From: Branchiostoma floridae
Lineage: Eukaryota > Chordata > Leptocardii > Amphioxiformes > Branchiostomatidae
Length of the DNA stretch: 64,000 nt
NCBI RefSeq assembly: GCF_000003815.2
Contig: NC_049992.1
Span: 1,363,724 to 1,427,723 of the forward strand
Reading direction: 5' to 3'
Under the pieces are notes generated by a model. It did not search any database and was not told where the DNA came from. It was given only the letters and a program-made list of their open reading frames with translations. A program made the position numbers and the translations under genes. This document shows, in pieces, positions 6,007-59,400 of this stretch (position 1 is the first letter of the stretch; each line of letters opens with the position of its first letter).

Positions 6007-9000
6007 GCCAATGTTTTCCGAGATGAATACAACCGAGCCTTGGACCGCACGGAGTCGGTTGAAGTTCGTCTGGAGGCCGCTAGGCGGCTCCTGGCCAAGC
6101 AGAATGACATCATCCAGCTTCAGGAGCAGGATCTGCAGGACATGGCGACGGAGCTGGAGGTCGCCAAGGAAACACGAAAACAGATGAAAGCCAGGTAACA
6201 CAACACTCAGTAGTTGTTTTGTATACGTGACTGTGTTTTTGATTGGCTTGTTCTGTTTCGTTTTTTTAAAAATGAATCTGAATTGTATAGCCGTTAAAAA
6301 CTTTCCCTTTTGCATAGCACATCAGCTTCACAGGCACGCAGCGCAACAGCAACAGGTTATCACTGAATGGTATAACTCTTGCACACTAGTTTATCTTCAA
6401 GCGTTCTTAAAGCTCTGTAGTGAGGGTGTTCCTACTGTACTTGCTGGCAATTACTAATAGCGGACTTACCCCCTTACTCTGTACCCGGCTGGAACGCCGT
6501 TGTCAAGGAGGCCCATCAAGCCGCCCGAGATGCTTTCCTTCTCTGGCGGCAGTTGGGCCGTCCTAGGCATGGAGCGGTCTGGAATATCATGCGTAAAACA
6601 AGGGCGAAATTTAAGCTGTTACTGAGGCAGTGTCGCCGCTCTGAGGCCCAGTCTAGAGCGGACGCGCTTGCCATGCATCTTCATCAGGGGGGTTGCAAGA
6701 GTTTTTGGAATGCTCTGCGTTCGCAAAACCGCTCCAAGCCAAATCTTCCCAACACGGTTGATGGTTACACGGGGGCTACAGAAATTGCCAATATGTGGAG
6801 AAACTACTACAGTTCCTTGTTTAATTCGGTTAATTCCGCTAATCACAAACCATCTGTTATGCATGCAATGGAATCTGATGTTAGCGATGTAACCACGGTA
6901 ACAGTAGGAGAGGTATGTGATGCTATCAATGACTTATCCAATGGGAAGGCTAGTGACGTGCAGGGCATTTCAGCTGAGCATCTTAAGAACGCCGGGCCCC
7001 AACTACCCGTTTTGCTTTCAATTTTAATTTCCTCTATGCTTAGACACGCCTATGTGCCACCTAGCATTCTGAACGTTGTACTTGTCCCTGTATTGAAGAA
7101 GCCCAGCTGTAATGCTTCGAACAAGGACAGTTATCGTCCGATTGCAATTGCCAGTCCCTTGTTAAAAGTCATCGAATCTGTACTATTGACATACCTTGAC
7201 GATTTCCTATGCTCCCCGAGCAACCAGTTCGGATTTAAGAAGAAACATGGAACCGATCTATGTATATTTGCCCTCAAAGAAATTATTCAGTATTATCGAC
7301 AAAGGGGCTCTCCTGTATTTGCATGTTTTCTGGACGCATCCAAAGCGTTTGACCGTGTAAACCACTGGACATTGTTTAAAAAACTTATGGATCGAGGGGT
7401 TCCGATGTACCTAGTTAGATTCCTGGTCGTGTGGTATAGTACGTTGTCATTCTGTGTCCGTTGGGGCCACACCCTCTCGGATACATTTACTGCTATGAAT
7501 GGTTTGCCTCAAGGCAGCATATTGTCACCAATCTTGTTCAATGTGTATGTATCCGATTTGAGTACCGAGCTACTGAGGTCTGGAGTCGGTTGCTATGTTG
7601 GGGACACCTTAGTCAACCACTTGATGTACGCGGATGACATTTGCCTCGTCTGTCCGTCTGTTAAAGCGTTGCAGAGACTGATTAGTATTTGTGAGCTATC
7701 TGGAGCGGATATTGACATGTTGTTTAATGAATCGAAAACACTATGTATGTACTTTCCGTGTCGCCGCTTCCGCATGAGTATGCCTTTGCCGCCGCTGATG
7801 CTGTACGGTACCGCCTTAAAGTATGTCTCCTCTGCCACTTATCTTGGGTATATAATTACCCCTGATCTTTCGGATGACGCAGCAATCCGAGCTCACGTCA
7901 GAGGCTTTTATTCTCGGGCAAATTCACTCCTCCGCCGGTTTCGTTACTGCTCAGCGGCGGTAAAAAGTGAGTTGTTCTCAGCGTATTGCTCCCCGATGTA
8001 TTGTGCCCAAATTTGGAGTAATTACAGCGTGAGTGCGATCTCCAAGCTACGAGTGGCTTACCACAGCGCAATGAAACTGCTCTTTTCTGTCGGCAGGCAT
8101 ACAAGCACTAGTTGGTTGTTTGTGAATAACCGGACCGACATGTTTGACGCAAGGCGTCGCAAGGTCACCTACTCATTTGTAACACGCCTGCTGTCGTCTG
8201 ACAATGATATAATAAGAGTGCTTGTACACTCGGACGGCTTTTGCCACAGCCCATTCTGGCGACATTATGTAAAGTATTTGTAAGTGTAGCTTTGCAAATC
8301 TTTGTTCTGTGTATGTTTTTATGGGCCATGGGCCTGATACAAATAAATAAATAAATGGTGTTCTGCTTCAGTGAGTTCTCGCTAATGATGTATGAACCTC
8401 GCCCAGCAAGAGGGGAAGAAACCTTTTTCTGCTTTAACTATTTTTAATTTAAAAGAGGTGAATGTGAATTAGGGCAAATTAAAACGTTTGTTTGTCATAG
8501 GGCGCAGGTGTAATGCAGTTTTCTAAAAGCACCATCATCGTTAAAACCACATTTGTCCCTGGTCGATTAAAGGACCATGATTGCTATCAACAGAAGACTT
8601 TTGTAGATATGTGTTTTTAACCATATTCTAATACTATGCTAATAAATTAGAACATATAATTAAAACATCTATCTATGCCTTCAGACTGGACGAGTCCAAC
8701 ACGAAGCTGGACCTGGCTAAGATAGACTAACATGTTCACCTTGCCCCTAGACTAGACGAGTCCAACACGAAGCTGGACCAGGCTAAGGTAGACTTTGAAG
8801 CAGGAATCGAGGAGTACCGGCAGGAGCAGGCGGCTCAGGCGGCGTTCGGCTTCATCGGCGCCATCTTCGGGATATTCATCGGCGTCATACAGGTAATTAG
8901 TTTTCTTATTGCACGATAGATAAGTCGTTTCATGGTTTAAAGGGCGTATGCGCGGCGAGGTGCCTTGTGGGTACCATGTAGCATTTTTTGACAGGTACTG

Positions 9001-11701
9001 TTTACAGCTTCGGGGCCTTCAACTTTGACACAAAACCCACAGTTCATTTCGCCGCGCATGTGTAGTTTAAACCGGCCAGCTTATCCATGCATGTTTTGTT
9101 AAAGTGGCGGCCAATCATCAACACACTGCCCTACAGATTGGACTAGGCGATGTTGTTGGAGGGGTGAGCACAGAGTGAACTAACGGTAACATACTGCCTT
9201 ACAGATTGGACTAGGCGATGTTGTAGGAGGGGTGCAGTACAGAGTGAACTAACATTAACGCACTGCCGTACAGATTAGACTAGGCGATGTTGTAGGAGGG
9301 GTGCAGTACAGAGTGAACTAACATTAACGCACTGCCGTACAGATTGGACTAGGCGATGTTGTAGGAGGGGTGCAGTACAGAGTGAACTAACGTTAACACC
9401 CTGCCCCACAGATTGGACTAGGCGATGTTGTAGGAGGGGTGCAGTACAGAGTGAACTAACGTTAACACCCTGCCCCACAGATTGGACTAGGCGATGTTGT
9501 AGGAGGGGTGTCCAATATCGTGGGCAGCACCATTGATATCGCCGACACCATCACGGACCTAACCATTCTCATCCGGGACCTGGAGGAGTACAACAGCATC
9601 GCGGATGACGCAATAGAAAGTGCCGCAGGTGCCGTATCTGGGGTAAGTGTTCACTCTCACATTGACGTTAGACTGTATGTTTCCATTCTCTGTTTTAAAT
9701 TTACTCATCAACAAACGGATGAAGTCTGATTCACGGATGATGCATTCGAAGAACTGAAATGATATGTGGAGAGACGGGATATTTCTCTGTCCTTGGTGCT
9801 GATCTTCTTTCTCACAAAATGTCTGATTGAAGACTACATTACTTGACCATAGAGAAAATTCTTAGTAATTACAATGTCTCTCGTGGCGCAATAGTTGTCC
9901 CAGAATGACTATGAAGACTACAGTCCGTCTATGAAAAAAAATCCTGTATAATACTAACGTTTATTAACAGAATGACTATGAAGGCTACATCCTGACCATG
10001 GAGGATGGAGAGGTCCTGTAGACTCCTAACGTAACGTTCATTAACGTTTATTAATAGAATGACTATGAAGGCTACATCCTGACCATGGAGGATGGAGAGG
10101 TCCTGTAGACCCCTAACGTAACGTTCATTAACGTTTATCAACAGAATGACTATGAAGGCTACATCCTGACCATGGAGGATGGAGAGGTCCTGTAGACTCC
10201 TAACGTAACGTTCATTAACGTTTATCAACAGAATGACTATGAAGGCTACATCCTGACCATGGAGGATGGAGAGGTCCTGTAGACTCCTAACGTAACGTTC
10301 ATTAACGTTTATCAACAGAATGACTATGAAGGCTACATCTTGTCCATGGAGCGGGTTGTGGAGCTGCACATCAAAGTTGTGGAGTGGGACAACCTGCAGA
10401 ACGTGGCCTCCGCTCTGCTGTGACTATAAAATAACGCTGTATAATATAACCCCAAAGTGTTTACCCCAGAATGACTACGAAGGCTATATCCTGTCCATGG
10501 AGCGGGTTGTGGAGCTGGCTATAGAAGCAGATGCTGTAATATGAAAAGTGAAGTTGACAATGGTACCTTGATTTCTCCCAGACTGACTATGAAGGCTACA
10601 TTCAGACTATAAAGAAAGCCTGAGTGTATAATTCTAACCTGTTTACCCCAGAATGACTACGAAGGCTATATCCTGACCATGGAGCGGGTTGTTGAGCTGC
10701 ACATCAAAGTTGTGGAGTGGGACAACCTGCAGAACGTGGCCTCTGCCCTGCTGGGTCACGGAGAGGTCACCAAGATCAGCGGGTCACGTGAGTACCGCAA
10801 GATCATGTCCGAGACCTCCAACTGGGGCAAGGCGCTCACGGAGACCACCATCGCCGAGGCTGAGCTGCGCGTGCAGTATGAAAGGTGGCGCTTCTGAACT
10901 ACTACTAATGTTGCTACTTCTTCTGTCAGTCAGTCTATGCAGGCTATGACTCTGCGAAAAGGAACTAAACGACAATGGATACTACAATACAAAAATGTAC
11001 AAATTGAATACGGCGCTTCTAAACACGTTTATGGATACTTGATAACCCAGGGTAACGCATATCTCTGTTTCCGCAGCCCTTGGACCACACAGTTATGTAA
11101 TTGATTAAACACAGGCGTGTCAATCGGATGCTTTATCGTGATCCTACTTTATGCCGTATGTTCTTTGTGGCTTTCATAGCATAAATGTCATCCTGGTTAG
11201 CTTCCCACGATCGCCACGAAGACAATGGATTACAATAACATTTATATTTGGCTTGTTCTTGTTTTCTTAAATTCACGATGTATTCATGTATTATATTATT
11301 CGTATCCCAACCCGACCGGTACTTAACGAAACACCCCTGCATTTCCAGCCGGAAGCGCTGGCTGGCCGCGGAGAGGCGTGAGAAGGAGCGGATAGAGGCG
11401 CAGATCGGGCTGGACGAGAGCCGGAGGGAGATCAGCCTGGAGCTGACGTCAGCTATAGGGCTCACGGCCTTCCACGTACGTAACGTACTAACTAACTAAG
11501 CAACTAAGTAATAACTAACTATCTGGGACGAGAGCCGGAGGGAGATCAGCCTGGAGCTGACGTCTGCTATAGGGCTCACGGCCTTCCATGCACGTAATGT
11601 GCTAACTAAAGACATGGCTGCTGTGCAGCAGACACACCCTGCAATATTCGATAACATCAATGTAGCAAGTTGCAGGACACACAGAGCTGGAAGGACTGGT
11701 C

Positions 11702-11757
<56 letters not shown>

Positions 11758-14700
11758 TGTGTCTGGTAACAATAAAAAGATGGAGGTAAATTTTACTGAT
11801 CTTCTTACCAATTCCATCTGTCCAGAACGAGCCTAATATTCTGGTTCGCTATCACTACAATTACTGCAAACATATCATACTGTCTCATGATGTCAACTTT
11901 TTGGTACATTTTCGCGGGTACATTTCCCCCACCGCAGGTGAAGCTGGAGCTGAACAACATCCTGCTGGACTATTGCAACTCCTACTCTACTNNNNNNNNN
12001 NNNNNNNNNNNNNNNNNNNNNNNNNNNNNNNNNNNNNNNNNNNNNNNNNNNNNNNNNNNNNNNNNNNNNNNNNNNNNNNNNNNNNNNNNNNNNNNNNNNN
12101 NNNNNNNNNNNNNNNNNNNNNNNNNNNNNNNNNNNNNNNNNNNNNNNNNNNNNNNNNNNNNNNNNNNNNNNNNNNNNNNNNNNNNNNNNNNNNNNNNNNN
12201 NNNNNNNNNNNNNNNNNNNNNNNNNNNNNNNNNNNNNNNNNNNNNNNNNNNNCTGCTGGACAAGGTGTGGCAACTAGCTAGGTCTTACTGGTAGCATAAC
12301 CCTAACCCTAGCTAACCCTAACCCTAACCCAATTAGCTAGGTCTTACTGGTAGCATAGGCATAGCCCTAACCCTAGCTAACCCTAACCCTAACCCAACTA
12401 GCTAAGTCTTACTGGTAGCATAACCCTAACCCTAGCTAACCCTAACCCTAACCCAACTAGCTAGGTCTTACTGGTAGCATAACCCTAACCCTAGCTTACC
12501 CTAACCCTAACCCAACTAGCTAGGTCTTACTGGTAGCATAACCCTAACCCTAGCTAACCCTAACCCTAACCCAACTAGCTAGGTCTTACTGGTAGCATAG
12601 CCCTAACCCTAGCTAACCCTAACCCTAACCCAACTAGCTAGGTCTTACTGGTAGCATAGCCCTAACCCTAGCTAACCCTAACCCTAACCCTAACCCTAAC
12701 CCTAACCTACCTACAAAACCCAGCCTGGGAGACGACCTGGTCACTCTGCTGGACAAGGTCTGGCAAATAGGTTCTACCAGTAGCATAATAGATATACATG
12801 TAGATATAGAGACATAGAGAGACAAGGTGGCAAAGGGAGAAAGAAAGAGAAAGAAAGAGTGAGCGCGTAGGAGTGAGACAGAAAACGAGAGAAAAGCAGA
12901 TAGGGAGCGTCGGAGAGAGAAACAAATGAAGCAATCGATAAATAAACAGCAAAAGAGGGACAGAAAGAAATGTAGAGAGAACCAGAGAGAAAAACGAAGA
13001 TAGATAGGGAGAGAGTGTGTAAAAGGAGAGAGAGGAATCCAACAAATGGTTTAGCGGAAGAATATGATATGATATAAATTCCTCATTTAGTACTACGACA
13101 CCTCTGCTACGTTTGTTAAAGTCTTTGATAAAGAGGCTGCCTTAAAGAAACTTTCCCTTGTCTTTTCAGGTGAGCAACGCGGCCCAAGACGGCCTGCAGA
13201 ACTTGGCCAGCTTCAACCCGCCTCCTCAACCCTTCAACAACCTCAACATCCGCATCACTGACTCGGTAAGGGCTTACTAGTAGCCACCCTAACTGTAGCC
13301 CCAAACCCAACCCCTAACCCTAACCCGCCTCCTCAGCCCTTTAACAACCTCAACATCAACTCGACAAGGTCCTCGCAACCTTTCCTAAAATAGTATAAAT
13401 GATCAAATGAATGTATTGATACCATATGTGAATGAGTCAATGAATGAATAAATGAATTAAAAGATAAATGAATAGACACGCTTTCTCCCAACACATCCGC
13501 TCCTGGAATGAATGGCTAGATTTTCCTTTTTGCACTTCTTGGGCAGTATACACACATATATACCTGATAAGTTTTAAAAGAATTCAAACCTGTTGTGTAT
13601 TCATCGTCATTTTATCTTTCGGTGACTTGAAAAACGTTTGCTGCCCCCCTCACCAGCCGACGGCGTGCGTGAACGCCACGGAGTGCCCGGTGTCGCTCCT
13701 GAAGGAGACCAAGAGGCTGCACGTGGAGATCGCAATAAACAAACAAACAAATAAACAAACAAACAAACAAACAAATGTTTTCTGTCCCCCAGCCGACAGC
13801 GTGCGTGAACGCCACGGAGTGCCCGGTGTCGCTGCTGAAGGAAACCCGGAGGCTGCACGTGGAGATCCGGCACGATCACCCCAACTTTCTCAGCTGGGAC
13901 CGCGTCAGGATAGAGAAGATCAGGGTCTTCCTCATCGGTAGGTGATTTTACTTTCAGTTCAAATTTACATCTATAAGTCTTAGGTCCCAACTGCACCGGT
14001 GCCCGTCAGAGATATCGCCCGGCGGGCTCCGAAGCCACAAATATGTCCCGGTGGATTTCCGGATATGGAGGGTTCCGGTTTTGCTCGGGTCACAGGTGTT
14101 ATGATCGCAGGCTTGATCTGGGTCAAAAGTACAAACGGAAAATACAACACACATGCAACTCTGAATATTTTTACGGAGTGTCTGATTTTTGACTGAGAAT
14201 TCCGTCTTGTTTCCACCCCAGGCGCCACCCTCCCGAGTAACCGGATGCGGGTGTCCATTTCCACATCCGGGGAGTTCTTTGACCGTTACCGTTCCATCGA
14301 GCAGGACTTCGTGAGCGTGCCTCTGCGGAGGGGGTTTGAGTACAACCCGTCAAGCAGTAAGTAATCCATTTGTGTCATATCTGTCATGTGATCTGCATTT
14401 GAAGCTTTGCCTCATCTGAGCATGTTGTCGCCAGACCTTTGAACGGGCTATATTGAGAGTGACCCACGGTCCTCCTAGTTAGGTGTACTCCCGGGGAAGT
14501 GTCTCACTAGGCGAGGAGGAGGTCGTCTCTCGTCGGCAGAGTCTCTCTTCTTCCACCTATCGATCCTGAAGGTGAACTCCGAGGCCTTGAACTGTCTAAA
14601 GTGTTACCTGACTTAACGAAATTTCTCGTTTTTTTCCCAGATGGCGTCATCGTCGACGGAAACATCCATGACGATTTCCATGGTTACTACTCGCTGACCA

Positions 14701-15641: not shown

Positions 15642-15722
15642 GGCAGTGACCTGGTGACGTCACGCAGCGTCGTCTTACCAATGGTGGAAGAGGACTTCAC
15701 CATGCTTTATGTGATAGGAGGA

Positions 15723-15728
15723 AATAAA
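15723..15728 (+). terminator. Polyadenylation signal AATAAA
   Basis: It lies 82 bp after the stop codon at 15641 and is followed by a T/G-rich stretch (CGCCTTGTTTTTGTTG), the usual layout of a cleavage site. Confidence 0.65.
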
Positions 15729-16104
15729 TCATTCCAAACAGGCATTTATTCGCCTTGTTTTTGTTGTTCTATCATACAGTTTATACTAACTGCACAAAGA
15801 TGCTTTTATCTAAGAGTGGCATAGTAGCAAAGCTGGCTATGAAGTATAGCTGGCCAAAGGGAGTCATCAGCCACTCCGGTAGCCAAACACACTCCTAAGT
15901 CGGCTTCACTCCTCTGCCTGCTTTGAATACTATCTTATGTTACCGTAGGATCTGGTTGCTTAATCTTAACATTGATTTTATGTATGACTTCCGCGCATGC
16001 GCATGCATTAACTTTCACCAAATTTCCAGTTTTTACACCATCGTCTGAAACAGGTTAACGTGCCTCCTGTAACAGCAAATGTAGAAGTTATCATTTTACA
16101 TAGA

Positions 16105-20449: not shown

Positions 20450-23400
20450 ATGGGGCCCCTTAGAACGGCGGTAGGGGCTCTACTGTGTCTCCTCTCGGCT
20501 GTGCCCTGCTGTGTTACACGGGACAGCCTCTGCTTTCCCGGGTGCAGTGAGCGCAGCTGGCACGCCTGTATCCCCGAAAGCCTTACCACAACCACCCATC
20601 CTAGCACACACACCATCTGGAGATCGCCCAGCGGCAAGTCAGCGTGTTTCTTGTGCAACAAGCAGAGGTTTGTCGCCTGGATGCCGCCTGAAAACGTCAC
20701 GTGTATTCCAAGTAAGACTGGCTCCATCAAGATTGCTGTGCGCGGATACCACTTCGGAAGCCTCTCGGCCCGAAAGCTTGGATTTGTGGACCCCGGGACC
20801 ACGGCCCTCTCCCTGATCGACAACAACATCACGAAGCTAGAAACGAACGCCCTAGCCAGGCTGACACGTCTGTACACACTGCACCTGGATTTTAACAAAC
20901 TCTCAGGCATCAAGGCGGGTTGGTTTGGCGGGCTAGGCGGGTTGGAAATCTTGACTTTGACAAACAACCAGATCAAGACCATCGAACCCGGTTCCTTTCA
21001 AGACGTCAGGATTCTTAAGACGTTGTTTCTAGAGAACAACCTGGTACAGAGCTTACACCCCGACTCGCTGCTGGGCCTGGGAAGCCTGTGGGACCTGTAC
21101 CTGGGTAGGAGCCGTCTGAGCGCGTTCCCCTCCGCGGCTCTGCGGGGCCTCCGTCACCTGGTCCGGCTGGACCTGCACGGGAGCCGCCTGGCCGGTCTGG
21201 ACGGGCGCGTACTGACTGGGCTGGGCAGGCTGGAGAACGTCAAGGTGATGCTTTATTTCTTGCAATTGGTTGCTACTTTAGATGTTACAGGTGTTTAAGT
21301 AATTTTCATAATCATCTACTGTAAATGCAGAAATGTTCGCGGTGGAGTAATATTCGCGGTTTTCGCGGTGACCACTTCACCGCGAACTTAAAACCACCGC
21401 GAACATTTTTCTATTATGGTAATAGACTGCAGTCTATGGTGTTACCGCGAACTTAAATCCACCGCGAAAAGTCATTTTCCCGCTACCGCGAAATTAAATC
21501 CCCGCGAACTTAAATCCATTTACAGTACTTTACTTCGAGTTGTAGAAACCTTTGCTGTACAGATAGCTGTTTTTTAGTATATGTATTCATGATTGTCCTT
21601 TTGTGAGATCTGTTTTTTAATACCCGACAGAAAGAAAGTTAGCAGTATTTGCTAACATTTATTATCATAAGTAGTCTCAGATCTTTTTTTTATCATAATA
21701 TTGTCATCTTTTATCATTTACTAACATTTGAATATACTATCATCATCAATAACTTAGTCTTATCATTTGCTAGCCTTTAAAGTTTTCATTGATGTCGGGA
21801 GAACTAAATTTAGAACAAATCCCATTGCCTTTTTTCTCCCTCCAATACGTGTTCCTTTTTAAACCTAATATAGATGATTGTTAATTAGTTTTATAATGTA
21901 CTAATGACTAAAATCGAAGCAATCAATTCCAGGTGGACGGGACCCGGATTGCCACACTGGACGGCCGGACCCTTCAGAACTAGAACAGTTCCCGTTGCCC
22001 CTTTTCTCCCTTCAGCACTTGTCTTAATTCTTTTTTAACCTGATGTAGATGATTGAAAATTAGTTTTATAATGTACTAATGACTAAAATCCAATCAATCA
22101 ATTCCAGGTGGATGAGACACGAATTGCCACCCTGGACGGCCGTACTCACCAGAACTAGAACAGTTCCCGTTGCCTTTTTTCTCCCTCCAGCACGTGTTCT
22201 TCTGATGTAGATGTTTTTGTAAATTGATTTTAAAATGTACTAATGTACTAATAAATCAATTCCAGGTGGACGGGACCCGACTGGCCACCCTGGACGGCGG
22301 GACCCTGGAGAATACTTCCTGGGGCGTCACCCTGGAGGTCAGGCAGGTCCGCTCTCCTTCCCAGGGCACTGTGCGGAAGCACGTGCAGTCCGTGTCCGTG
22401 TCTGTGCACGGTGTGCTGGTCTGCCTGCGTCACGATGACGTCAGCGGCGTGACGCACCTCGGCTGGATGTTCGCGCCACCGGTCATCCCGTTCTGCCGGG
22501 CAGACCTGGCCTGCAGGTTTGTTTTATTTTTTATTTTTTATTTTACAGAGTTCAATGCATTTTACAGACAAATCATAAGGCTACAGACATCACTGTAATA
22601 CGTTCAACATTGTTTTTACAATGAATCTGAGCTGATTATGACTGTCAAGGTGACAAATGTAGATCAATACCGAAACATGCGTTTATACATTTCTGCTTGT
22701 TGCTTGATATTTACACAACATATTTGATTAAAAGTAATTCAGGGCTACATAGCAGCATTACAATATTGTGCAAAGGAAACTGTTGCATAGTGCAAATAAC
22801 TCTTGACATGGCATGTGCAAGATGGTGAAGAAAGCCTACCTGCCTGCCTGCCTAAGTGCCTAGGCCAGGGACTGGACCCTTGCTCCGCTCCGTTAGTAGT
22901 CTCCAGGTTGCACGGTCCTGTGCACTTGTCTCCGCAAACTTGATACTCTGTCCAATATCCTTTGCAATTTGATCCCTTCAGCACTTCTGGGGTTTACCCC
23001 GTGGCCCTGGCTTTTGGAAATCTTGATAGTATGCTTGAAGAAAGAAATTTAAACAAATACCAAATAATGTCTATTCTGTGTCTTACCTGCAGGTGCTCGG
23101 CACTGGACAGAGACCTGACCAGAACCACGGGCCGGCTCCCGGCCGTCATCGTCATTCCTACAGGCGGGGCTTCCCGCCAACGCGCGCCGGACGGACACAG
23201 TCTTTACGGAAGAGCTTTACGGAGTCTTTACGGCGTCCGCCTGCCGTTGAGGCATGGGCTGGCTTTGACGCTCGTCGGGGTGGACGCAACGGACGATACT
23301 GTGGAGAGTAGCGCCATCGTGATCGATCACGCTGACAATCAGACCATAAAGGCTCCAGGTCGGGATGTGAACACTTACCTGTTGGTACCAAATGCTGAGC

Positions 23401-40875: not shown

Positions 40876-40897
40876 CTCCTCTCTCTCTCTCTCTTTA

Positions 40898-40964
<67 letters not shown>

Positions 40965-48328: not shown

Positions 48329-51300
48329 ATGGAAGCGAACGGGACCGCAGAGCCCGGGAACAGCTCCGGTGATGCTGACTGGGGCGATCTGGGCGGGCAG
48401 GAGAGCATGTGGGGAACCGTCGCTCTGGTCGTGCTGCTGTCAATCATTGTGGCCATCACGGTGGTGAGTTCATCTTTCCATGTCTTCTGTGTTAAGATTA
48501 GGGGTTTATTATCGTCTACGTAAAAACAAATTTTACGATATCGCATTAGTGGGCCAAAGGGAGTAGGGAAAATGTCACTGACTTCGAAGGTTCCCCAAAA
48601 AATTATTGGTTTCGAATGTACGTATTCACGATTTCATGAGGCACACTTATTTCATATTGATATCTTCACCTTTAATACCCCTGAGTGCGCTAGCCAGTTT
48701 ATCACAATCTCCCTAACACTATAAAGAATGACTCGAAGATGGTCTACTTCTTTAAGACAGGGGTTTTTATTACCCACGGAGCGGCTAGAAGAAGCATGAT
48801 GCTACGAGATGCATGTTTACGATGTAGCAATATCAGTCGGTCATTATCACCGTCTGTCTCACAAGGAATGTATAGGGTTACCAGTAGAAGGTCTTTCTTT
48901 TTGAGACGTAGGTTTTGTATTACGTAGAATGGCTTGAAGACAGCCAAGCCTACACGTATTGGAACCATATTTACGTTACAGCCCCAGCTGTCGGTATTAC
49001 AGTCTGCCGTCCTGGGAGCATTACGAATGACTTGGAGAAGGCTAATTGACGTTTTATTACGCCTGGGAAACATATTTTGGGTCTAGCAAAGATAGATCAA
49101 AAGAAGTGGGGAAAATATCGATTTTTGAAGGTAAAATTTATCACATTCGAATCGGGGCGCCAAAGATGTGAATATTCGCCAGTTATGCTACAGTCACATT
49201 TCAAAACCGGGGCCCGGCCGGACTATTTTAGAAAACGAAAAAAAATGCCATGACTCTCCTTTCTACGTTTTGTGCATTTTATTGTCTTTTATATAATTTT
49301 TTCGTCCCCGGTCGGGCCCCAGTTTGGAACTTTCACTTCACTGTGACCTAGGCATGAATGAGGTGCTCCTATATTCTTTCTACGACGTCTTCTCCTTTAA
49401 TACTCTTGAGTGCACTATCCATAAGAATTCCTTGAAGATCATATTTCTTCTTTAAGACGTAGGTTTTTATTACCCACTTGGTATACTTGCTATTAAAAGC
49501 CCGACGCTACGAGAAACATATTTACGATACATCCAGTCCGTTTTTACTGCCGTCTGTGTCACCAGGAATATGAGAAATGACCCGGAGAAGGTTTTTCTTT
49601 TTAAGATCTGCCCATTGGGTAGAAAGGCTCGAAGACGGTTTATATTACACCAACGGGAGCCATATTTATTGCAGAGCCACAGTAACCGGGTTTTATTACC
49701 GTTCCTCTCACTGGGAGCATTACCAATAACTAGAGGAAGGTGAGGTTGTTACATGAAGGGGAAACATACTTACAGTATAGTCGCAGCGGTGGGCCAGAAA
49801 GATGACAGACGTGTCACATTTTTTATGGTTTTACATACGTTTATTAGGAACCATGACGACTTGAAGATGCTTACTGACCAGTTGATAAGTACGCTTAAGG
49901 CCCCTTAAAACGGAAAAGCGAACGCTGAGCGACGGTTAAATGACAAATTAGATTCGTGTCACGCTATTCTATGGTCGGAATCAAAAGACACAAAACGTGA
50001 ACAAAAATCTGTTCTTAATCTAAAAATACGTTGAGCAATGTGTGTCATCCTCCGTTACTCAGCAGTCATAGCCTGTAGTGGAAAGGCACTTTTACCTCAT
50101 TCGGAAACAGAATTTCAGTCGGAAGGAAGCAGTTTCTGAGCGTAACCACCAATCGTACAACGATTATCTTCAAGAAAGGGGATGGTTTGAAGAGTTTAGC
50201 GTACGCGTATTCCCGTCTGGACCGCAGCACGATGATTGATTGTCCTGTTTATGTAGTACTCATCTCGCGTTACTGTAGCCCTCTGGTCAGTAATGCGTCA
50301 TCAGGGCCTCTAAAACAAAGTGCATCGGCCTTTTTGGTCCTAGGACGCAGCTACAGAATGCGCAGGACATTTTATGGAACGATTTTCAGAAAAGGCTTCC
50401 ATTGACATGTTTTGATTTAAAGAGCCTGTATGCGTCTGCAAGTGTGTGGATGGATAGCAGAGCTCTAGAAGGCCTGGGTGGATTGTATTGAAATTTAGTA
50501 TGTATTGATGACACCTTGAAGCGCTTTTGGCCTTGATTTTGGCCACCCTAGCGGCTTGTTAAGGTACTGCAGCGGAAATTCTGGCTGTGATATTTCGATT
50601 TTGAAGTTATGAATTAATTTATCAAAACAAATTGTGCTGTTCTACAAACAAATCCAAAGGCTTTTTTGTCACTACGTAACAAGACCTGAAAGTCATTTTG
50701 AGATGTGACCCGAAGGCCACTCCAAGGGTACAGGTCACATTGTAAATGTAACAGCATCTCTCCTCCCTAGATCAGAAACATCACGATTGAGACCAGGTAA
50801 GTGTGAGGATGTAACTGGCCCAGTTGGCGAAGAAGGGGTTACAAAGACTGCTCAGGAAATTCCCTACCACATTTAAGCCGGAATGGTTTGATCCACACAC
50901 CGGGAAGGTCCCCTACTCTTTTCCATGTTTTGTTCATGGTGTTGTTCAGTAGTCTCCAGACACTGTCTAACGTCTTGTTCCTTCAGGTGGGAAACATCCT
51001 GGTGCTGCTGGCGGTAGCGACACACCGCAGTCTCCAGACACTGTCTAACGTCTTGGCCCTTGTCTTGTTCCTTCAGGTGGGAAACATCCTGGTGCTGCTG
51101 GCGGTAGCGACACACCGCAGTCTCCAGACACTGTCTAACGTCTTGACCCTTGTCTTGTTCCTTCAGGTGGGAAACATCCTGGTTCTCCTGGCGGTAGCGA
51201 CACACCGCAGTCTCCAGACGCTGTCTAACGTCTTCCTGGTGTCGCTCTGCGTCTCTGATCTTCTGGTAAGTGGACGTTTTGTTTGTTTTCAGATAATGTG

Positions 51301-54300
51301 TACACCAACTCTGGACGTAACACACTCGTTTATACAGCAGATACAAGCTGTATAAGCTGTGGCCGTTTGATTCACTCACACCAAGACGGTTCCCTACTGA
51401 TTCCGATAAGTGTGGTGTTTTTGTTACATACTTGAGACGGGGCTCTCCAGATTCAGGGAACCTTTGGCTCTAAGTCCTATCCGAGAGGATGTAAGAGGTA
51501 CGCTGTACGGAGAGTAAATCTCCACCGCCACCCCCACGACTACCCCCCCCCCCGTGTAGACTATTTGACATTCAGTAGTTTCTAGCGAGGACCAATAAAA
51601 TAGCTGCTGGCAGGTCACTGACATTGGGCGATAACTGCGAGCTTTTCGCACCCTTGCTTATCATGCAAATGCCGTGAACTCAAATCAAGCAGACATTATG
51701 TTCGTCATTTTGCACCGTGCGGGAGCTTTACTTGCTCACAAACAACTCTATATATCAGTTTAAAAAGTTTACTCTGGTGATCAAAAGGTGACGGGACTGT
51801 AGCGAGTTTTCCTGCATTAAACTTTTTGAAATGACGGCCCTACAGTTTATTTCCGTCTCTTTTATTACGCGCTTTGTCACTTTAGTTCTATTTTTTCGTC
51901 CACTTGTACCTCAAGGCTTCGTGGCGTAGTTGACTAGTGATTGGATTTGTAACTTTTGGACCAGAGTTCGAACCTGGCGTGGTGCAATTTTAAAAAAAGT
52001 TTTCTTTGTTGAATATTTTACTTTTTATCACTATACGGTCGTACTTTTGTAACTGAAATGTTTCGCTTCTTGTCAGTCACCCAAAATGTTGTCACCCCCA
52101 AAAGTTGTGACTTTTAGTACGTGTCACCCTATGTTTCAGTGCTATTTCCTTGCATTCACAAAAATAAAAACAGTACGTAGTTCTACAACTTACAACTTGT
52201 ACCTTGTAACAAGGTAAAGAGACGTCTCTGATGACCCGGTGTACAACGGCTGTAGTAAGTTGTCAAATATATGCGTTATGCACTCAAGTCGTGTTGTTTG
52301 CTGATTATTCAGTCCGTCCTTCTATTCTATATAACCAGCATTCAAAGGGACCAGCTCATAAAAATACATGCTGCAAACTAAAGGAAGCCCCACAAAGATG
52401 TCCTTTGTAATGTATTGACGGTATTTAACAGCTAGTAATCGACGGACAATAGGTGTGAAACATTCCTCCCTGGCCCTCGCGTGCAACCGGTCTGGCGTTA
52501 ATTGGTTACTCTGCATTTGAAAGAGCGGACTTCATGGGCGTAGCCCTCGCTAGAAATCTACTGAATGGGAATCAGNNNNNNNNNNNNNNNNNNNNNNNNN
52601 NNNNNNNNNNNNNNNNNNNNNNNNNNNNNNNNNNNNNNNNNNNNNNNNNNNNNNNNNNNNNNNNNNNNNNNNNNNTTTAACATCACTCTTGTTAGGCCCC
52701 CCCCCCCGACACACTTACACGCGTCGCCGTTTTTTTAACATCACTCTTGTTCCTGTTACCCCAGGTGATAGCCCCTTCCGTTGCCATCTCCCCCACCAGC
52801 CCCCCCCCCCCCACTCCAAACACACACACACGTCACCGGTGTATTTTTTTTTATATTACTCTTTTTTTCCCAGGTTGGCCCCCATGCCATTGCCATCCAT
52901 GAGAGTGGGTCTTCTCACCCAGACACACATACACGTCGCCGATGTGTTTTTTCAACAACACTTTTGTTTACCCCAAGTGGGTGCCCTTCTGATGCCCCCA
53001 GCCATTGGAGTCACCTTGTACGGAGAGTGGATCTTCTCAACCACCCCCCTTCCCCACACATACACACGCTTGTCGCCGGTGCGTTTTTTAAACATCACTC
53101 TTGTTTTCGTTACCCAAGGTCGGCGCCCTTGTGATGCCCCCTGCCATTGGAGTCACCCTGTACGGAGAGTGGATATTCTCCCCGGGATTCTGCGCGGTCT
53201 GGGTCTCGTTTGACGTCATGCTGTGCAGCGCCTCCATCCTCAACCTCTGCGTCATCAGTCTAGACAGGTCAGAGGTCAATTTATTTTGTTATCGTTATCA
53301 CCGTTGAGAAACTATAAAGGACGTTTGATTAAGGTCTTGAAAGAAAAAAAGAGAACGTCCTTGCCGAAATACAGTATAGTTACCCTATGTATTCCCAAGA
53401 AACGGTCTTCTCAACTTAAAGATAACTTGAGCGTGCTTGGTTATCTGAAATGATTGTATCCTTGTCTGATAGTTTCAATGATTCATGCTCCCCGGTCACC
53501 TTGGGATGGTCGCTTGTAGATCAGGCTAAAACAGAAAGAGCTAAAGTCTTACGCATGCTTGTGTCCTCCTTACTTATAAACCACATTTACTCCAATTCAT
53601 GTATTGCAGAGACATTCATCAAAATGTCTTGCCCAGTAAAAAAGAAAAAAAAAACCGAGCCGTCCCAACCACTGCTTCAAGCATAACACCTTTAACGGCT
53701 TACACAGGATAGTCTCTCTACAATCCCATTTCCTGCCTTTCTCCAATGACTTAACATGTCGGGGCAACCTTGTTTACCGCCAACTAAACCTTGTATGGAG
53801 AAAAACAGGATGTGATCCATTCAGTGCGGGTGAAGTCATTGAAAATCAGGTCATTACCCTTCCCAGACGCCCCCAAATGTCACTAGTACCGATGTTTGTG
53901 TCTAACGAAGTGCAAAACAGTATTATTTTGCTTCAAGAATTCAAAGGCTTTTATTATCAGTACAGTTCTAAAAGTGCTCACTCATTCATAACGTGGATTA
54001 TTATTTTAAACGGCTCTACGTGTCTCATAATTTTACTTTGACTACGATTCATGTTCCTCGGTCATGTTGGAATTGTCACTGGTAGATGATTCTTAACAAG
54101 AAAGAGCTTGAGCTTTGTAAACACTTCCCTTCCATTCATCCATTGAAACATTCAACCCAAAGTTTCGTCCAGTTAAGTCAAAGCCCTTCGTCACCTATTG
54201 AGTCAATCAAACGTGCCGATGCTCAATGACTTTGGTAGAAAAGATGCTGATACAGTGAGCGTATGGTAGTTCGGTACCTAGAAGTGATCAATACATGGCT

Positions 54301-57300
54301 TTGCACTGATAAAACTCGTTTAAAAAGTAATATTTCCCAGTTGTGTCCGCTACTGTTTCAAGCATAACACTAGTGGTGCGTACCTAAACTTATATTCAGG
54401 TTCAGGTCCGGATTCAAGTCCAGCAGTTCAGGTTCAGGTTCGGACTTTAAGTCCGGACCTGAACCCATCATTGCATATTATGTGCACTAGAAATTTTATT
54501 TGAAGGGGAGGGGGGATGGTGCATATAAAATTGCCTGTTATGAATTGAAATGCAATGTGAAAAATACATGCAAATTATATACAGCCAGTGTAAACATGAA
54601 AAGTTTTTTTGTCTCAGTGCAAATTTCACTGTCTATGGAAGGTTTTAAATGGTTTAGAACAAAAAAAGGGAATATAAGTGACAGATTGCTTTTTGCAAGT
54701 CCGGACTTGGCTCCGGACATTCAGGGTTTTTTTTGGACTTGGACCTAAACATTTCAGGTCCAATTCCAAGTCCGGGCTTTAGGTACGCACCACTACATAA
54801 CACTTTTCTCGGCTTACACAGTTCTAAGATCTTTTCTACAATCCGATAAGAACTTGACACCAGGGCCCTACAGTGTCAGGGCAACGTTGTTTACTAGGAA
54901 CGAAGCCTTGTGGAAGAATAGAACCGTGAATGAAGTCACTCCAAATCAGTTTATCGCCTTCCCCAGACAAATCCAATACGATTAGAGAACTCTGCTTCTA
55001 ACGATGAACTCACCGAATAACAAAAACATCGGGGCGACATTCATAACAGTGCTGATGGGCTTGGGTTACATTTTGTATTGTCGCTACTAAAAGGTTACTG
55101 CTTTAGTGTATTAAGTTTGTCGAGTTGTCAAAGAGAAAAAGACAACTGCCCAGTTCTTTAAAGATTACGTGTCTTAATTCTCATATCTAACTGAGACATC
55201 CTGGGTTGTTCGATGTGACATAACCAACTGCTGTCTCGCCGCGTGTCTGCGGAAAAAAATGTTTGTTACGCTGAAAGGCGGCTATGTTAAACCGGCTATA
55301 TGGATATATAAGCTGGTGTCTTAAACAGAAGGGCGGTTATGATATATAGATACAGATACAGAAGCTGGTGTGTTACGTCGAAGGGCGGTTATACCGGCTA
55401 TATAGATACAGATACAGAAGCTGGTGTGTTACGCTGAAGGGTGGTTGTACCGATTGTACACATACAAGCTGGTGTTACGCTGAAGGGCGGTTATACAGGC
55501 CACACAGACACAGAAAATGTTATGTTCCACAGGGCGGTAACTTTTTGTATGGGATGAAATAAAGCCTGTATGTTGAAAAGTGTCCCCATCTCTGTTACAG
55601 ATACATCCAGATCACGCGGCCCCTCCAACACGACACCTACATGACGAACACGATACAGATACAGAAATTTATGTGTTGCACCGAGTGGACCCTTTTTGTA
55701 TGGAATAAAATGAAACTTAAATTCCCCTCTCTAACACAGATATATCCAGATCACGCGGCCCCTCCAACACGACACGTACCTAATGGTTTCCCCTCTCTAA
55801 CACAGATATATCCAGATCACGCGGCCCCTCCAACACGACACCTACATGACCAACACGCGGGCCGGAGTGCTGATCGCCCTGGCCTGGCTGCTCGCCATCT
55901 TTGCCTCCTTCCCGCCCATCACGCTGGGCTGGCACGAGCACCCCGGACACCCGAGTCTCAGCGACCTGACCGCGCTGTCCCCGCGGCCGCAGTGCGTCTT
56001 CGACCCGAGCAAGACGTACGCGCTCACCGCTTCCATCGTCACCTTCTATATACCACTGGCAGCCATCCTCTTCACCTACAGGTGTGTTTGTTTGTTTGTT
56101 TTGTCACCTTCTACATCCCTCTCGCCGCCATCCTCTTTATGTACAGATTTGTTAACGCTATACAATATGGTAAACGTATGGTATAGGTATAATTCGGGGT
56201 TATAGGTTTCGCGTGTGTGTGTTTGTCTGTGTGCATTTCCCCAATGATAATTTAAAGATGGATTGTGATGATATTTGGCACGTGAGTAGGTCTTGAGAAG
56301 ACGAAGCTCAAGGTAATCTAAGACCCTCTGGTGGCCGATCTTGGTAATGCAGCAGAGCTTCCGGTTTTCGTTTTTGCTTGTTATGGTTTCGTCATTACTA
56401 TCATCAACATGAGAATTATTATCATGATGATTCTCCCAGCCGGATCTACAAAGAGGCGAAGTCCCAGGCGACGCGCGTGGCCTCCCTGAATAAGCAGTTC
56501 CGCACGGAGTCCAGACGGAAGAACGGGAAGCGTGGCAGCCAGCCCAGCGGGCCCTCCTCCACCAAAGGTGCTTCATTATTATTGCCATGTCACATTATTT
56601 ACTATTGCCATTGTAGTAAAAGCAGGTTGTCTCCACATATGAAGTAATTCTTGATTTGCATTGTTTGTACGACCTAGTATAGTCAAACCTGTATTAGGGG
56701 CCACCTCTACAGAGGGGCCACCTGTCCATAGTGGCCACTTTTTGTCGGTCCCTTGGGTATTTTATCTACAAGTTGCCACCTCTATACAGAGGCCACCTGT
56801 CTATAGTGGCCAAATTTGTCCGGTCCCTTGAGTGGCCGCTATAGACAGGTTTGACTGTACGTAGAAACTTAGTGCGTAAAAAACTTCATGCTCTTGGGAA
56901 AGGCGCTTTTCTCACTCCACCCAGGTGAAAAATGGCTATATGACTTCGGTTGGGGAGGTAAAGTGTGGTGAAAGGAGAGAGTAGACCTTCCAATACTATA
57001 CCCTAGACAAAGTAGATAACAACCCGCTGGCCAATGGTCATGGCCGTAAAAGGGTTATCAATGAATGAATGAATGAATGGAGACCTTTATTGTACATAGT
57101 ACCCACTGGGTTAAGTACAGGTCGCAACAAAAGATACATGAAATATATGCAATGTCATCCAATACAAGAATCGTATCTTACTACGTGAATATGAGACTAC
57201 CTTTGCCTTTTCCCTCCTTGTCCGCAGCTATCCGCACGCTGGGAGTGATCCTCGGAGCCTTCATGGTCACCTGTCTAAAGTGGCCACACTTCTCCAGTCC

Positions 57301-58673
57301 CTTGAGTGGCCGCTATAGACAGTTTTGACTGTATCTTTACCCTTTTCTCTCCGTCCACAGCTATCCGCACGTTGGGAGTGATCCTGGGAGCCTTCATGGT
57401 CACCTGTCTAAAGTGGCCACACTTCTCCAGTCCCTTGAGTGGCCGGTATAGACAGTTTTGGCTGTGCCTTAACCCTTTTTTCTTCGTCTACAGCCATCCG
57501 CACGCTGGGAGTGATCATCGGAGCCTTCATGGCCACCTGTCTAAAGTGGCCACACTTCCCCAGTCCCTTGAGTGGCCGCTATAGACAGTTTTGCCTGTAC
57601 CTTGACCCTTTTCCTCTGTCCACAGCTATCCGCACGCTGGGAGTGATCCTGGGCGCCTTCATCGTCACCTGTCTAAACTGGCCACACTTCTCCAGTCCCT
57701 TGAATGGCCGCTATAGACAGTTTTGACTGTATCTTTACCTTTTTGTGTCTGTCCACAGCCATCCGCACGCTGGGAGTGATCCTCGGAGCCTTCATGGTCA
57801 CGTGGCTGCCTTTCTTCATCTCGAATATCGTGCGGCCCTTCTGCGGCTGCGTGCCGGGGGAGGTGTTCGAAGGTGCGTTGGTTTTTATATATATCTATAT
57901 ATATATAATGCGGGACAGGAGACCTGGCGCATCCCCGTCTTGTAATTAGCCAGCGAAAGGGTATGTCACCCCGTAAGGGGCGGTATCACCCCGTCGTGTG
58001 TAAACATGTGCGAACATGTGTGATCACGTCGACCGATGATGATGATGATCTATATAGTGCGTAGAAGTAGTTGATTTCGAGCTGTGCTTCGCTATAAGCG
58101 AGATCAGAATTAGCGCTCACCCTCTTGAAGTAGAAAGAGAGCGTATTAGGGGTTTACTAGTGTGCAAAAGAATTTGTAGATACTGTACATCTAAAGCAGT
58201 GGAAGACGAAAAACTTTTTTATTTCCAAGTGTTTGTTCCACAAAACTGAAAAACCTTCTCTTCGACAGATTTCCTCTGACGTCACTGACGAGGGACAGGG
58301 ACTGCGATCTGCAACGTCTGACCATTTTTGAAGTCATATCCAGTTGCTTGATGAACTACTATTTGGTGTAAAATTATTTTTTATCCTGTATTTCACACCT
58401 TCAGGTCTGACGTGGCTGGGCTGGTGCAACTCCACCATGAATCCCGTCATCTACCCGCTCTTCATCAAGGACTTCAAGCAGGTCTTCCGCAAGTACCTGC
58501 CGTGCTGTCGCCAGCCGCCAGGGGGCAACGTCATGGGCATCCACGGGGTCCCGTTCCCGCTGCCGGGCCCGTCCACGTCCAACGAGAACGGCAACATCGA
58601 AATCAGCACTGTAGCCGGGACCGTTCCCGCCAACAACCGCGTCGATTCGCCGGTGGATGAACAGGCGAACTAA
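48329..58673 (+). CDS. 5-HT6-like serotonin/biogenic-amine G-protein-coupled receptor, seven exons, 389 residues
   Basis: Exons 48329-48463, 51167-51265, 53119-53267, 55806-56081, 56440-56567, 57759-57872 and 58405-58673 all have consensus sites and fitting phases; total 1170 nt with TAA. Features in order: N-glycosylation sites NGT and NSS; TM1 with GNILVLLAV; TM2 SLCVSDLL; TM3 with the amine-binding Asp in VSFDVML and SASILNLCVISLDR, whose DRY Tyr is split over the exon 3/4 junction; TM4 with SFPPITLGWHEHPG; an ECL2 Cys (PRPQCVF); TM5 TASIVTFYIP; a short ICL3; TM6 VTWLPFFISNIVRPFC; TM7 LTWLGWCNSTMNPVIYPLF; and a CC pair for palmitoylation. The TM3, GWHE, WLPFF and WLG(W/Y)CNSTMNP blocks match vertebrate 5-HT6 better than the D1-type receptors I compared in memory. 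5-HT6 couples to Gs; that coupling is inferred here. TM5 has Ala at 5.42 and Thr at 5.46, as in 5-HT6 and unlike the Ser pairs of catecholamine receptors. Four of six acceptors, one donor and the last exon carry tandem self-copies. Confidence 0.9.
48735..49785 (+). repeat. Diverged tandem duplication in receptor intron 1 (about 345 bp, offset 700 bp)
   Basis: The stretch 48735-49080 and the stretch 49435-49780 share, in order, TTCTTTAAGAC(A/G), TTTTTATTACCCAC, GCTACGAGA, CCGTCTGT(C/G)TCAC, GAGAAGG, CTGGGAGCATTAC and GGGAAACATA. A GC-ended MITE sits between the halves. Non-coding. Confidence 0.7.
49196..49335. mobile_element. MITE with GGGGCCCGGCCGG ends (copy 2)
   Basis: The left AAACCGGGGCCCGGCCGGAC is mirrored by GTCGGGCCCCAGTTTGG. 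The interior TCTACGTTTTGTGCATTTTATTGTCTTTTATAT matches the interior of the copy at 17150-17340. Confidence 0.75.
50690..50935 (-). mobile_element. SINE fragment abutting the exon 2 array
   Basis: CATCACGATTGAGACCAGGT, AAAGACTGCTCAGG and TTGATCCACACACCGGGAAGG are the reverse complement of the SINE body. It ends about 10 bp before the first unit of the exon-2 minisatellite. Confidence 0.6.
50945..51265 (+). repeat. Acceptor-side exon-boundary minisatellite of receptor exon 2, 3 copies of 90 bp plus a partial
   Basis: CTTCAG|GTGGGAAACATCC starts at 50987, 51077 and 51167. The 90-bp unit contains 70 nt of exon (GTAGCGACACACCGCAGTC, ACACTGTCTAACGTCTT) then CCCTTGTCTTGTTCCTTCAG. A partial unit begins at 50950. 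The frame is open through all units, and each acceptor would join exon 1 in phase 0. The exon part of the first two copies has only silent or near-silent changes compared with the real exon (GTGCTG/GTTCTC, ACA/ACG). Confidence 0.94.
51355..51490 (-). mobile_element. SINE fragment
   Basis: GATTCACTCACACCAAGACGG, GATAAGTGTGGTGTTTTTGTTACATACTTGAG and GGGGCTCTCC match, in order, the fragments at 15245 and 30480 and the reverse complement of the SINE at 46746. Confidence 0.6.
51918..51992 (+). other. tRNA-like sequence
   Basis: TGGCGTAGTTGAC is A-box-like and CAGAGTTCGAACCTGG forms a B box with a near-complete T stem, followed by a T-run. The anticodon arm does not pair cleanly, so a pseudo-tRNA or SINE head is more likely than a working gene. 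Confidence 0.4.
52576..52675. other. Assembly gap (100 N)
   Basis: A run of exactly 100 N directly beside the exon 3 array. A repeat-driven assembly break is likely. Confidence 0.99.
52680..53170 (+). repeat. Acceptor-side exon-boundary array of receptor exon 3, at least 4 degenerate copies
   Basis: Acceptor plus exon start occurs at 52765, 52874, 52978 and 53119, each preceded by a TTTAACATCACTCTTGTT-like tract. The 52978 copy retains CCATTGGAGTCACC and TACGGAGAGTGGAT, then ends in CACACATACACAC. The 52765 and 52874 copies are much more diverged. A partial tract before 52740 suggests further copies in the gap. Confidence 0.85.
53455..54990 (+). repeat. Tandem duplication in receptor intron 3; one copy holds a hAT insertion
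   Basis: Unit A (about 53460-53930) and unit B (about 54040-54990) share GATTCATG(C/T)TCC, GAAAGAGCT, CTTCAAGCATAACAC, CGGCTTACACAG, GGGCAAC(C/G)TTGTTTAC, GAAGTCA and CTTCCCCAGAC-type blocks. Unit B alone contains the element at 54371-54795. Confidence 0.8.
54371..54795. mobile_element. Non-autonomous hAT-type element with 8-bp target duplication (copy B)
   Basis: The inverted ends TAGTGGTGCGTACCTAAA and TTTAGGTACGCACCACTA are flanked by CATAACAC on both sides (54363-54370 and 54796-54803). The interior repeats CAGGTTCAGGTCCGGA-type words, related to the element at 45807. 425 bp, no transposase. Confidence 0.93.
55255..55540 (+). repeat. Minisatellite of about 60 bp units (GGCGGTTATACCGGCTATATAG), 5 units
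   Basis: GTGTTACG(C/T)(T/C)GAAGGGCGGTTAT recurs near 55265, 55325, 55367, 55425 and 55470 with TATAGATACAGATACAGAAG between. An isolated unit lies at 41460. Confidence 0.85.
55595..55860 (+). repeat. Acceptor-side exon-boundary array of receptor exon 4, 3 copies
   Basis: ACAG|ATA(C/T)ATCCAGATCACG starts at 55601, 55740 and 55806. The first copy keeps about 54 nt of exon (through CACGACACCTACATGAC), the second about 43 nt. Only the third continues into TM4. Each intervening intron piece has TCCCC(A)TCTCT(G/A)(T/A)(T/C)ACAG. Confidence 0.92.
56082..56160 (+). repeat. Donor-side copy of the end of receptor exon 4
   Basis: After the donor at 56082 and (TTTG)n, GTCACCTTCTACATCCC...TACAG at 56103-56146 repeats the last 44 nt of the exon. 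Of the codon differences, six are silent third-position changes and one changes Thr to Met. The copy lacks a GT donor (TACAG|ATTTG). Confidence 0.9.
56679..56860. mobile_element. MITE with AGTCAAACCTG ends
   Basis: The left end AGTCAAACCTGTATTAGGGGCC is mirrored by GGCCGCTATAGACAGGTTTGACT. The interior repeats GGCCACCT(G)T and TATAGTGGCCA. About 180 bp in receptor intron 5. Its right half is fused to exon 6 in the array at 57228. Confidence 0.85.
56880..57070 (+). mobile_element. SINE fragment
   Basis: GCTCTTGGGAAAGGCGCTTTTCTCACTCC and CAGGTGAAAAATGGCTA match the body of the SINE at 46746 in direct orientation. (AATG)n follows at 57060-57078. Confidence 0.6.
57215..57775 (+). repeat. Acceptor-side exon-boundary minisatellite of receptor exon 6, 5 copies of 133 bp, fused to a MITE end
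   Basis: CAG|C(T/C)ATCCGCACGCTGGGAG begins at 57228, 57361, 57494, 57626 and 57759. In the first four copies the exon sequence stops at GTCACCTG and continues as CTAAAGTGGCCACAC...GCTATAGACAGTTTTGACTGTA, the right half of the MITE at 56679. The fifth copy reads GTCACGTGGCTGCC and is the real exon. Confidence 0.95.
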
Positions 58674-58679
58674 AAGGCA

Positions 58680-59400
58680 AAGACTTTTCAACCCATTTCG
58701 TCTCACGCCCAAAACCGCGTTGGTTCCCCAGTGAATGAACAGAACTAAAAGGCAAAGACTTCCATCTGAAACTAGAACAGTGCAATGGGAATCAGTACCA
58801 AAGACAGCACCATTCCCAACAACAATCGTACCACCAAGTCCCTGGCCGTAAACGGTGCCGTCTCCACTAACAACCGCGCTGCTTCCCCACCGGATGAATG
58901 GAAACAGCTCCTCCCTCTACAATGAGAAGGGTGCAGTTGAAATCAGCACAGTTGCCAGCACCGTTCACACTAACAACCGCGTTGATGCTCTGGTGGAGAA
59001 ATAGACACAAACTAAGGGACAGGGACTTTCTAACCAACTCCATGTCCAGGTAACACAGTATCCTAAGAATTAGCATCGTGGTCATCCGTGTAACCAGCTT
59101 CGCGGTCGCCACGGGATCTAAGAACAGTCGCGCCCATGCTTCAGTGGAAAATAGACAAAATGATAAAGGACAAAAACACCGTTAGTGTACCGACAAAGCC
59201 GTGCCGAGCGGACGCAGATCCGAAGCTTACAGCACATCAGAAGAGACGGAGAATCTTAGAAGAGTCGAGTAGAATCCGTGTTCACCAGCAGCCGTACATG
59301 AAGATAAAAGGACACAGACTATGAAACACTCCACTTCAAACCGGAGCAGCATGCTTGTCATCAGTACCGCTGTTGGCACTTTTCCCAGCGCAAAGATGAT
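58680..59400 (+). repeat. Degenerate tandem copies of the receptor's last coding segment in its 3' UTR
   Basis: The end of the coding region (GAAATCAGCACTGTAGCC, AACAACCGCGTCGATTCG, GTGGATGAACAGGC, CTAAAAGGCAAAGACTTTT) is echoed after the stop at about 58705-58765, 58778-58840, 58850-58905, 58920-59030 and about 59340-59390. The best copy reads TTGAAATCAGCACAGTTGCC and AACAACCGCGTTGATGC and then has its own TAG. Confidence 0.82.

Follow-up and report, generated by a model that had tools for sequence, protein, structure and literature searches.

Tandem copies of exon–intron junctions in three lancelet genes

Genes and junction copies in the window

The window, that is, the whole stretch of DNA analysed here, comprises 64,000 nucleotides of contig C14 of the Branchiostoma floridae genome (513 Mb in 431 contigs) and contains gaps of N. 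On its forward strand lie three genes and a dispersed element:

6007..15641, + strand: gene A, about 12 exons seen (reading frame, splice sites and exon finder)
20451..24610, + strand: gene B, a leucine-rich repeat protein, 3 exons (Pfam LRR_8, E 1.3e-33)
51167..58673, + strand: gene C, a rhodopsin-type GPCR, 6 exons seen (Pfam 7tm_1, E 4.2e-16 and 1.2e-11)
56677..56860, + strand: dispersed element of about 184 bp, lying whole in a gene C intron beside the array of exon 57759

No Pfam family above the cut-off was found in the three stretches of gene A that were scanned. An intron of this gene holds an open reverse-transcriptase frame (6424-8283, RVT_1, E 1.9e-31), which is taken for a non-LTR element. 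The last exon of gene B carries an in-frame 138-nt tandem duplication at 24246-24519. For gene C, a genome search of this one assembly found no second copy or haplotype. At least 51 further rows of at least 150 nt, some of them head to tail, were found in the genome for the dispersed element. A Fibrinogen_C gene lies at the window edge (185-979, minus strand, E 7.9e-70), and by eye an exon in the adjoining 6 kb (L092) resembles that of this gene; the predicted edges of both are without junction copies.

Window junctions were placed by reading frame and splice consensus. A 40-mer across each junction (10 nt of intron and 30 nt of exon) was then compared with the surrounding 1 kb, a copy being a match with at most 8 edits, and the identical flanks reversed served as a control. 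This test replaced a self-BLAST within loci, which required 12 nt of intron and scored 7 of 34 window junctions, because the latter missed arrays (for example, 22266). A copy is present at 11 of the 33 testable junctions (35 were listed) in genes A, B and C, and at 0 of 33 in the reversed-flank control. A clear gap in edit distance separates the positive junctions (0-7) from all others (at least 12). Boundary-spanning tandem copies are present on both the acceptor and the donor sides of exons: nine of 18 acceptors are positive (8751, 9481, 10652, 13793, 22266, 51167, 53119, 55806 and 57759), as are two of 15 donors (11475 and 14825). The acceptor at 6007, checked in the exon-finder run and outside the 33-junction test, has no copy. 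With Tandem Repeats Finder, arrays with 59-175 nt units were found beside many exons of the three genes, including head-to-tail arrays with units of 66-175 nt at seven of the 11 passing junctions. The junction arrays, together with weaker and untestable cases, are as follows:

8683..8794, + strand: acceptor array of exon 8751, 2 copies of a 66-nt unit with 44 nt of exon
9116..9510, + strand: acceptor array of exon 9481, 6 copies of a 68-69-nt unit with 30 nt of exon
9895..10753, + strand: composite acceptor array of exon 10652, 9 copies
11412..11600, + strand: donor array of exon end 11475, 2 copies with a spacing of about 113-114 nt
12253..12790, + strand: donor side of 12264, intronic 59-nt array, 7 copies, telomere-like CCCTAA repeats
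13218..13370, + strand: weak donor-side copy of exon end 13265, diverged exon part only (13 edits; 8 of 30)
13653..13867, + strand: acceptor array of exon 13793, 2 copies of a 136-nt unit with 75 nt of exon, separated by an AAAC microsatellite
14746..15165, + strand: donor array of exon end 14825, 4 copies of a 105-nt unit that holds 75-80 nt of exon and a GTTT repeat
21855..22300, + strand: acceptor array of exon 22266 (gene B), 3 copies, units 174 and 158
50951..51234, + strand: acceptor array of exon 51167 (gene C), 3 copies, unit 90, 68 nt of exon
52697..53180, + strand: acceptor array of exon 53119 (gene C), 2 copies, diverged, about 141 nt apart
55580..55857, + strand: acceptor array of exon 55806 (gene C), 3 copies
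56038..56146, + strand: weak donor-side copy of exon end 56081 (gene C), 44 nt of exon (12 edits)
57198..57807, + strand: acceptor array of exon 57759 (gene C), 5 copies of a 132-133-nt unit with about 45-49 nt of exon

In gene A, six junction arrays pass the 40-mer test and two are weak or untestable. The junction at 12264 lies outside the test because its exon is largely Ns; by eye, its copy is readable once, only at the far end of the array near 12746. Two gene A exons have telomere-like CCCTAACCCTAACCC repeats on their donor side, at 12316-12702 and 13312-13326 (10 matches versus 0.00 expected), and none was found in the 90 sample loci described below. At 22266, an extra listed fourth copy, in exon 1, is taken as spurious. 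By eye, a truncated exon piece of greater age also belongs to the 51167 array, joined through a GTCTT that both have in common.

An exon finder trained on other loci reproduced the edges of most internal window exons. It missed exon 22266-22516, shifted donor 13941 by 4 nt and chose copied edges, or decoys, in two exons (50987 for 51167 and 15035 for 14825).

The earlier note had described at least a dozen exon boundaries with junction arrays in these genes. All nine of its acceptor arrays pass the 40-mer test, as do two of its five donor arrays (11475 and 14825), while those at 56081 and 13265 are weak, with a diverged exon part only. Its figures of 2 to 9 copies and 30-100 nt of exon per copy agree with the 2-9 copies counted at window junctions and the 29-102 nt found where measurable. 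Its observation that the intact exon is retained beside the rest of the gene is borne out by the functional edges, which have open reading frames and splice sites. The statement that copies always keep the splice site does not hold, since GT is changed to AT in the 56081 copy and, by eye, GC stands at the splice dinucleotide of the 11475 copy. Nor is every array made of plain junction copies, as the 57198-57807 units include about 68 nt from the end of the 184-bp dispersed element.

Junction copies elsewhere in the genome

Junctions were also examined in a sample made up of the best 30 loci each of SNF transporters, CCT chaperonins and myosin heads (90 of 305 matches, some overlapping). Exon edges in this sample were predicted by a finder that was trained on the same loci and can take decoys; its predictions on the reverse versus the forward strand numbered 19 versus 265 at a threshold of 18, used for array-level tests, and 7 versus 238 at a threshold of 22, used for junction and position counts. 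A copy was found at 7 of 311 junctions of predicted exons (one acceptor and six donors), with no hits in the reversed control, and at 4 of 158 junctions placed by Pfam edges, after removal of one row that was itself a decoy. The 11 of 33 in the window exceeds both proportions (Fisher P 2e-8 and 7e-7, respectively). Thus, the view that such arrays are equally frequent genome-wide is not supported by the conserved-family loci. The lead to lancelet mirages was right, and copies of this class also turn up in genes for SNF transporters, CCT chaperonins and kinesin elsewhere in the genome. The kinesin case, an exon with three copies at C2:31967610-31968130, lies outside the sample and was chosen for its repeated partial matches in a Pfam table of 134 matches. 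A CCT chaperonin gene (L036, 2235-3175) holds a donor-side array of at least 14 copies, with a unit of 67 nt and 56 nt of exon. With 30 loci per family, 16 of 24 sample arrays fall in SNF, 6 in CCT and 2 in myosin loci, and from this uneven spread gene families seem to differ.

Duplicated positions number 119 of 609 in the intron interiors of the three window genes (63/287, 14/59 and 42/263). Outside these genes the window has 74 of 1838, and the adjoining 6 kb, of which 1485 of 6000 bases are N, has 0 of 209. A regional hot spot is rejected on these last two counts; the density lies in the genes.

The earlier note had proposed comparing junctions with random intronic positions, and here the outcome depends on the unit that is counted. 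By position, sample junctions do not differ from non-exon positions (7/311 versus 136/4828, P 0.72). This test is harsh, since an array of many copies contributes many intron positions and only one junction. By array, units were placed randomly and never inside exons. For the window, 17 array rows were set by hand, with the exon-only rows 24246-24519 and 58625-58761 left out. Of these 17 arrays, all of which touch an intron, 14 overlap with a junction. The 40-mer test verified 11 of the 14, and the other three (12264, 13265 and 56081) are weak or untestable; the null mean is 2.8. As many as 11 junction arrays arose in 0 of 20000 permutations, and the binomial P for 14/17 is 5e-9, or 4e-5 after correction for 8000 windows. 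For the sample, 44 array rows were merged by hand to 27; in this merge, same-place repeats (L003, L050, L056 and L057) and single-hit rows (L065, L066 and L078) were dropped, pieces were joined and L009 was extended. Removal of three dispersed pairs (L006, L008 and the first of L041) left 24 arrays. Eleven of the 24 overlap a predicted junction, compared with a null of 3.8 (P 0.00025); nine are verified at up to 9 edits (P 0.006), L004 and L009 being the 9-edit cases, and seven at up to 8 edits (P 0.07). When whole array spans serve as the null units, 13 of 27 sample arrays overlap a junction versus 9.5 expected (P 0.085), and the window count lies above all 5000 permutations. Among well-preserved arrays, defined by a 60-mer within 6 edits, junctions are involved in nine of 10 window rows and in 5 of 12 sample arrays (P 0.03); leaving out a single row that was not verified gives 4 of 11 (P 0.08). 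The junction excess by array is therefore strong in the window, and weaker and dependent on the edit threshold in the sample.

Anatomy and splice signals of the copies

The exon parts of decoys, by an ungapped measure, are 29-102 nt long in the window and 21-102 nt over window and sample together, and in the measurable window pairs they are always shorter than the full exon. Four pairs (22266 copy 1, 53119, 11475 and 13265) yielded a value of 0, owing to an indel or a misplaced start. Duplication of whole exons, including mutually exclusive exons, does not fit these partial exons, the same four pairs being unmeasurable. In all acceptor pairs measured, at least 22 nt separate the end of the decoy's exon part from the next acceptor. 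Such a gap leaves room for a branch point and a pyrimidine tract, and would fit a need for a complete functional acceptor.

Scored with a generic matrix, 23 of 34 decoy acceptors are within 2 bits of the functional acceptor, or better. The best donor inside the decoy unit scores below 1 in 25 of 34 units. In nine units a donor scores at least 1.8, including all six of one sample array (L012), near the functional donor of that locus (3.1). Functional donor scores range from 0.9 to 6.5, with some low values (0.9 and 1.2). Given these nine units and the low functional donors, the case for exon definition is not clear-cut.

Between outermost and functional copies, identity is 0.87 in the exon part and 0.65 in the intron part (23 pairs), or 0.87 and 0.68 in the 21 pairs that remain without two faulty ones, 22266 (the spurious outermost copy) and L036 (cut by the locus end). 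Random intron pairs range from 0.29 to 0.58. End points within the exon can differ among the copies of one junction: at 10652, the seven decoys measured have four (29, 33, 48 and 102 nt); the pair of decoys at 55806 has two (52 and 40 nt); and in L012, six decoys end at exon positions 25, 80 and 86. These differences suggest repeated events at one junction, and part of the variety may reflect later rearrangement. Copies within arrays mostly differ from one another, and some units carry private insertions. In single cases possible microhomology was seen by eye.

Two other origins were considered for parts of these arrays. An origin of the spacers between copies as filler insertions was dropped, because visual comparison showed a weak alignment of the spacers with the sequence flanking the outermost copy. 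For introner-like mobile introns, the same unit in many unrelated introns was not seen: a search of 55500-58700, the one stretch covered, against the genome, which skips very common words, gave 55 rows besides itself, consisting of the 184-bp element and two weak matches, with no junction unit. At one sample locus (L030, 1740-1820), a long inverted repeat lies by eye between two copies of a duplicated donor junction.

Origin of the arrays and relation to known systems

The window arrays are read, with a probability of roughly 0.8, as mirages, that is, tandem duplications that are tolerated as long as an exon edge is left intact and that later expand as minisatellites. In the proposed sequence of events, a short tandem duplication would copy a junction-spanning segment, probably through repair of a DNA break or strand slippage. 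The favoured source would be random short tandem duplications, for example at breaks with overhangs, as in the available text of PMC8355091. The duplication would survive if one complete exon edge adjoins the rest of the gene, leaving the other copy to become intron. Afterwards the copies may increase in number and become homogenised, as in a minisatellite, while slowly decaying. Splicing would probably pass over the decoys through exon definition, since the exon fragments that hold most decoys have no partner splice site at their other end.

How far the junctions themselves are preferred is a separate question. The excess is likely to be partly ascertainment, because the exon portion of a copy can be recognised for longer than the intron portion, which decays. 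Taken as the whole account, ascertainment would have random duplications purged from exons, lost from view by decay in introns, and visible at junctions through the one constrained partner. The 0.87 versus 0.65-0.68 identity of exon and intron parts in the same pairs is what this account expects, a number of junction arrays from the sample are old (L009, L016, L030, L041 and L052), and there is no excess by position. Against it, the window excess persists among well-preserved arrays (nine of 10 rows), so that survivorship alone fails for the window, and by our reasoning one-sided constraint predicts at most an approximately twofold difference in divergence. Ascertainment as the sole cause is given a little under an even chance.

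A mutational process aimed at splice junctions, driven for example by transcription-linked breaks, by R-loops or by the change in composition at exon edges, and hitting some genes and junctions repeatedly, would account for the window better than random duplication with filtering. The array counts (14/17 with 11 verified versus 2.8 in the window; 11/24 with 9/24 verified versus 3.8 in the sample), the involvement of both junction types and the several end points at one junction all point in its direction. The sample count at 8 edits (7/24, P 0.07), the whole-span null (P 0.085), the position test (P 0.72) and the well-preserved sample arrays (P 0.03 or 0.08) speak against it; moreover, the window was picked for being striking and the array lists were merged by hand. 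This process is considered clearly less likely than not. Slippage at pyrimidine tracts, one of the causes that could be imagined, would not alone explain the donor-side arrays. Just as for the junction-directed process, it is less likely than not that a lancelet duplication process prefers the junctions of certain genes, strikes the same junction again and supplies decoy edges for longer or new introns. If this were true, decoy exon edges would be a standing source of longer introns and of new introns in lancelets.

Selection of the copies as splicing decoys, regulators or alternative exons is very unlikely. The decoys do keep good splice scores and most retain AG or GT, but conservation of the AG is confounded by homogenisation and the decoys are partial exons. 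In addition, from the first decoy to the functional acceptor, five of nine window arrays meet stops in all three frames, with one frame open in 13793, 51167 and 55806 and two in 53119. An assembly artefact is improbable in the extreme: the window has N gaps and one globin mirage was misassembled in an old draft (PMC3087553, in the text available), but the copies mostly differ, some with private insertions, and the class has been published from several other lancelet genes, with re-sequencing for PGBD5 (PMC3087553 and PMC3902484).

The reading as mirages can be compared with four systems, each as described in the accessible part of its source. Small tandem duplications formed at breaks with 3′ overhangs through Pol alpha-primase/CST or Pol theta resemble the present copies as short tandem duplications, which are said to be the commonest insertions below 100 bp in the human genome; they differ in arising from induced breaks in cultured cells and in being unrelated to splice junctions (PMC8355091). 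In the potato RdRp gene, tandem genomic duplication is tied to intron gain, as a resemblance to the present copies, but a new intron is claimed there, whereas the copies described here lie in existing introns (PMC4974935). In lancelet PGBD5, imperfect tandem repeats of 60 and 108 bp overlap or adjoin splice sites, as here, in a single gene and with unlike copy numbers in two genome sources (PMC3902484). They are backed by re-sequencing, and regular mRNA is reported there too (PMC3902484).

The closest likeness is to the mirages of Adh3 and the globins BflGb6 and BflGb9, which share boundary-spanning tandem copies on either side of the exon, an intact exon and a similar unit length (150-160 bp in the globins and 10-72 bp in Adh3; PMC3087553). 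That paper, in the sections available, reports instability and regular mRNA, and proposes mirages as a source of new introns while regular splicing is apparently undisturbed (PMC3087553). In the literature found, mirages are published from a handful of lancelet genes, among them Adh, globin, troponin C and PGBD5 genes (PMC3087553 and PMC3902484), and the search, made mostly without subscription papers, found no genome-wide count. Since mirages were already known from lancelets, the window genes are new members of this class. They differ from the published Adh3 and globin cases in that 11 of 33 junctions are affected in three genes of one window, known from the sequence of one assembly, and this density in genes A, B and C is unusual. 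A third of the testable junctions, together with the kinesin, transporter and chaperonin cases, thus offers material for testing intron growth or gain by duplication of exon edges, and for learning how splicing bypasses up to a dozen equally good decoys, as in L036.
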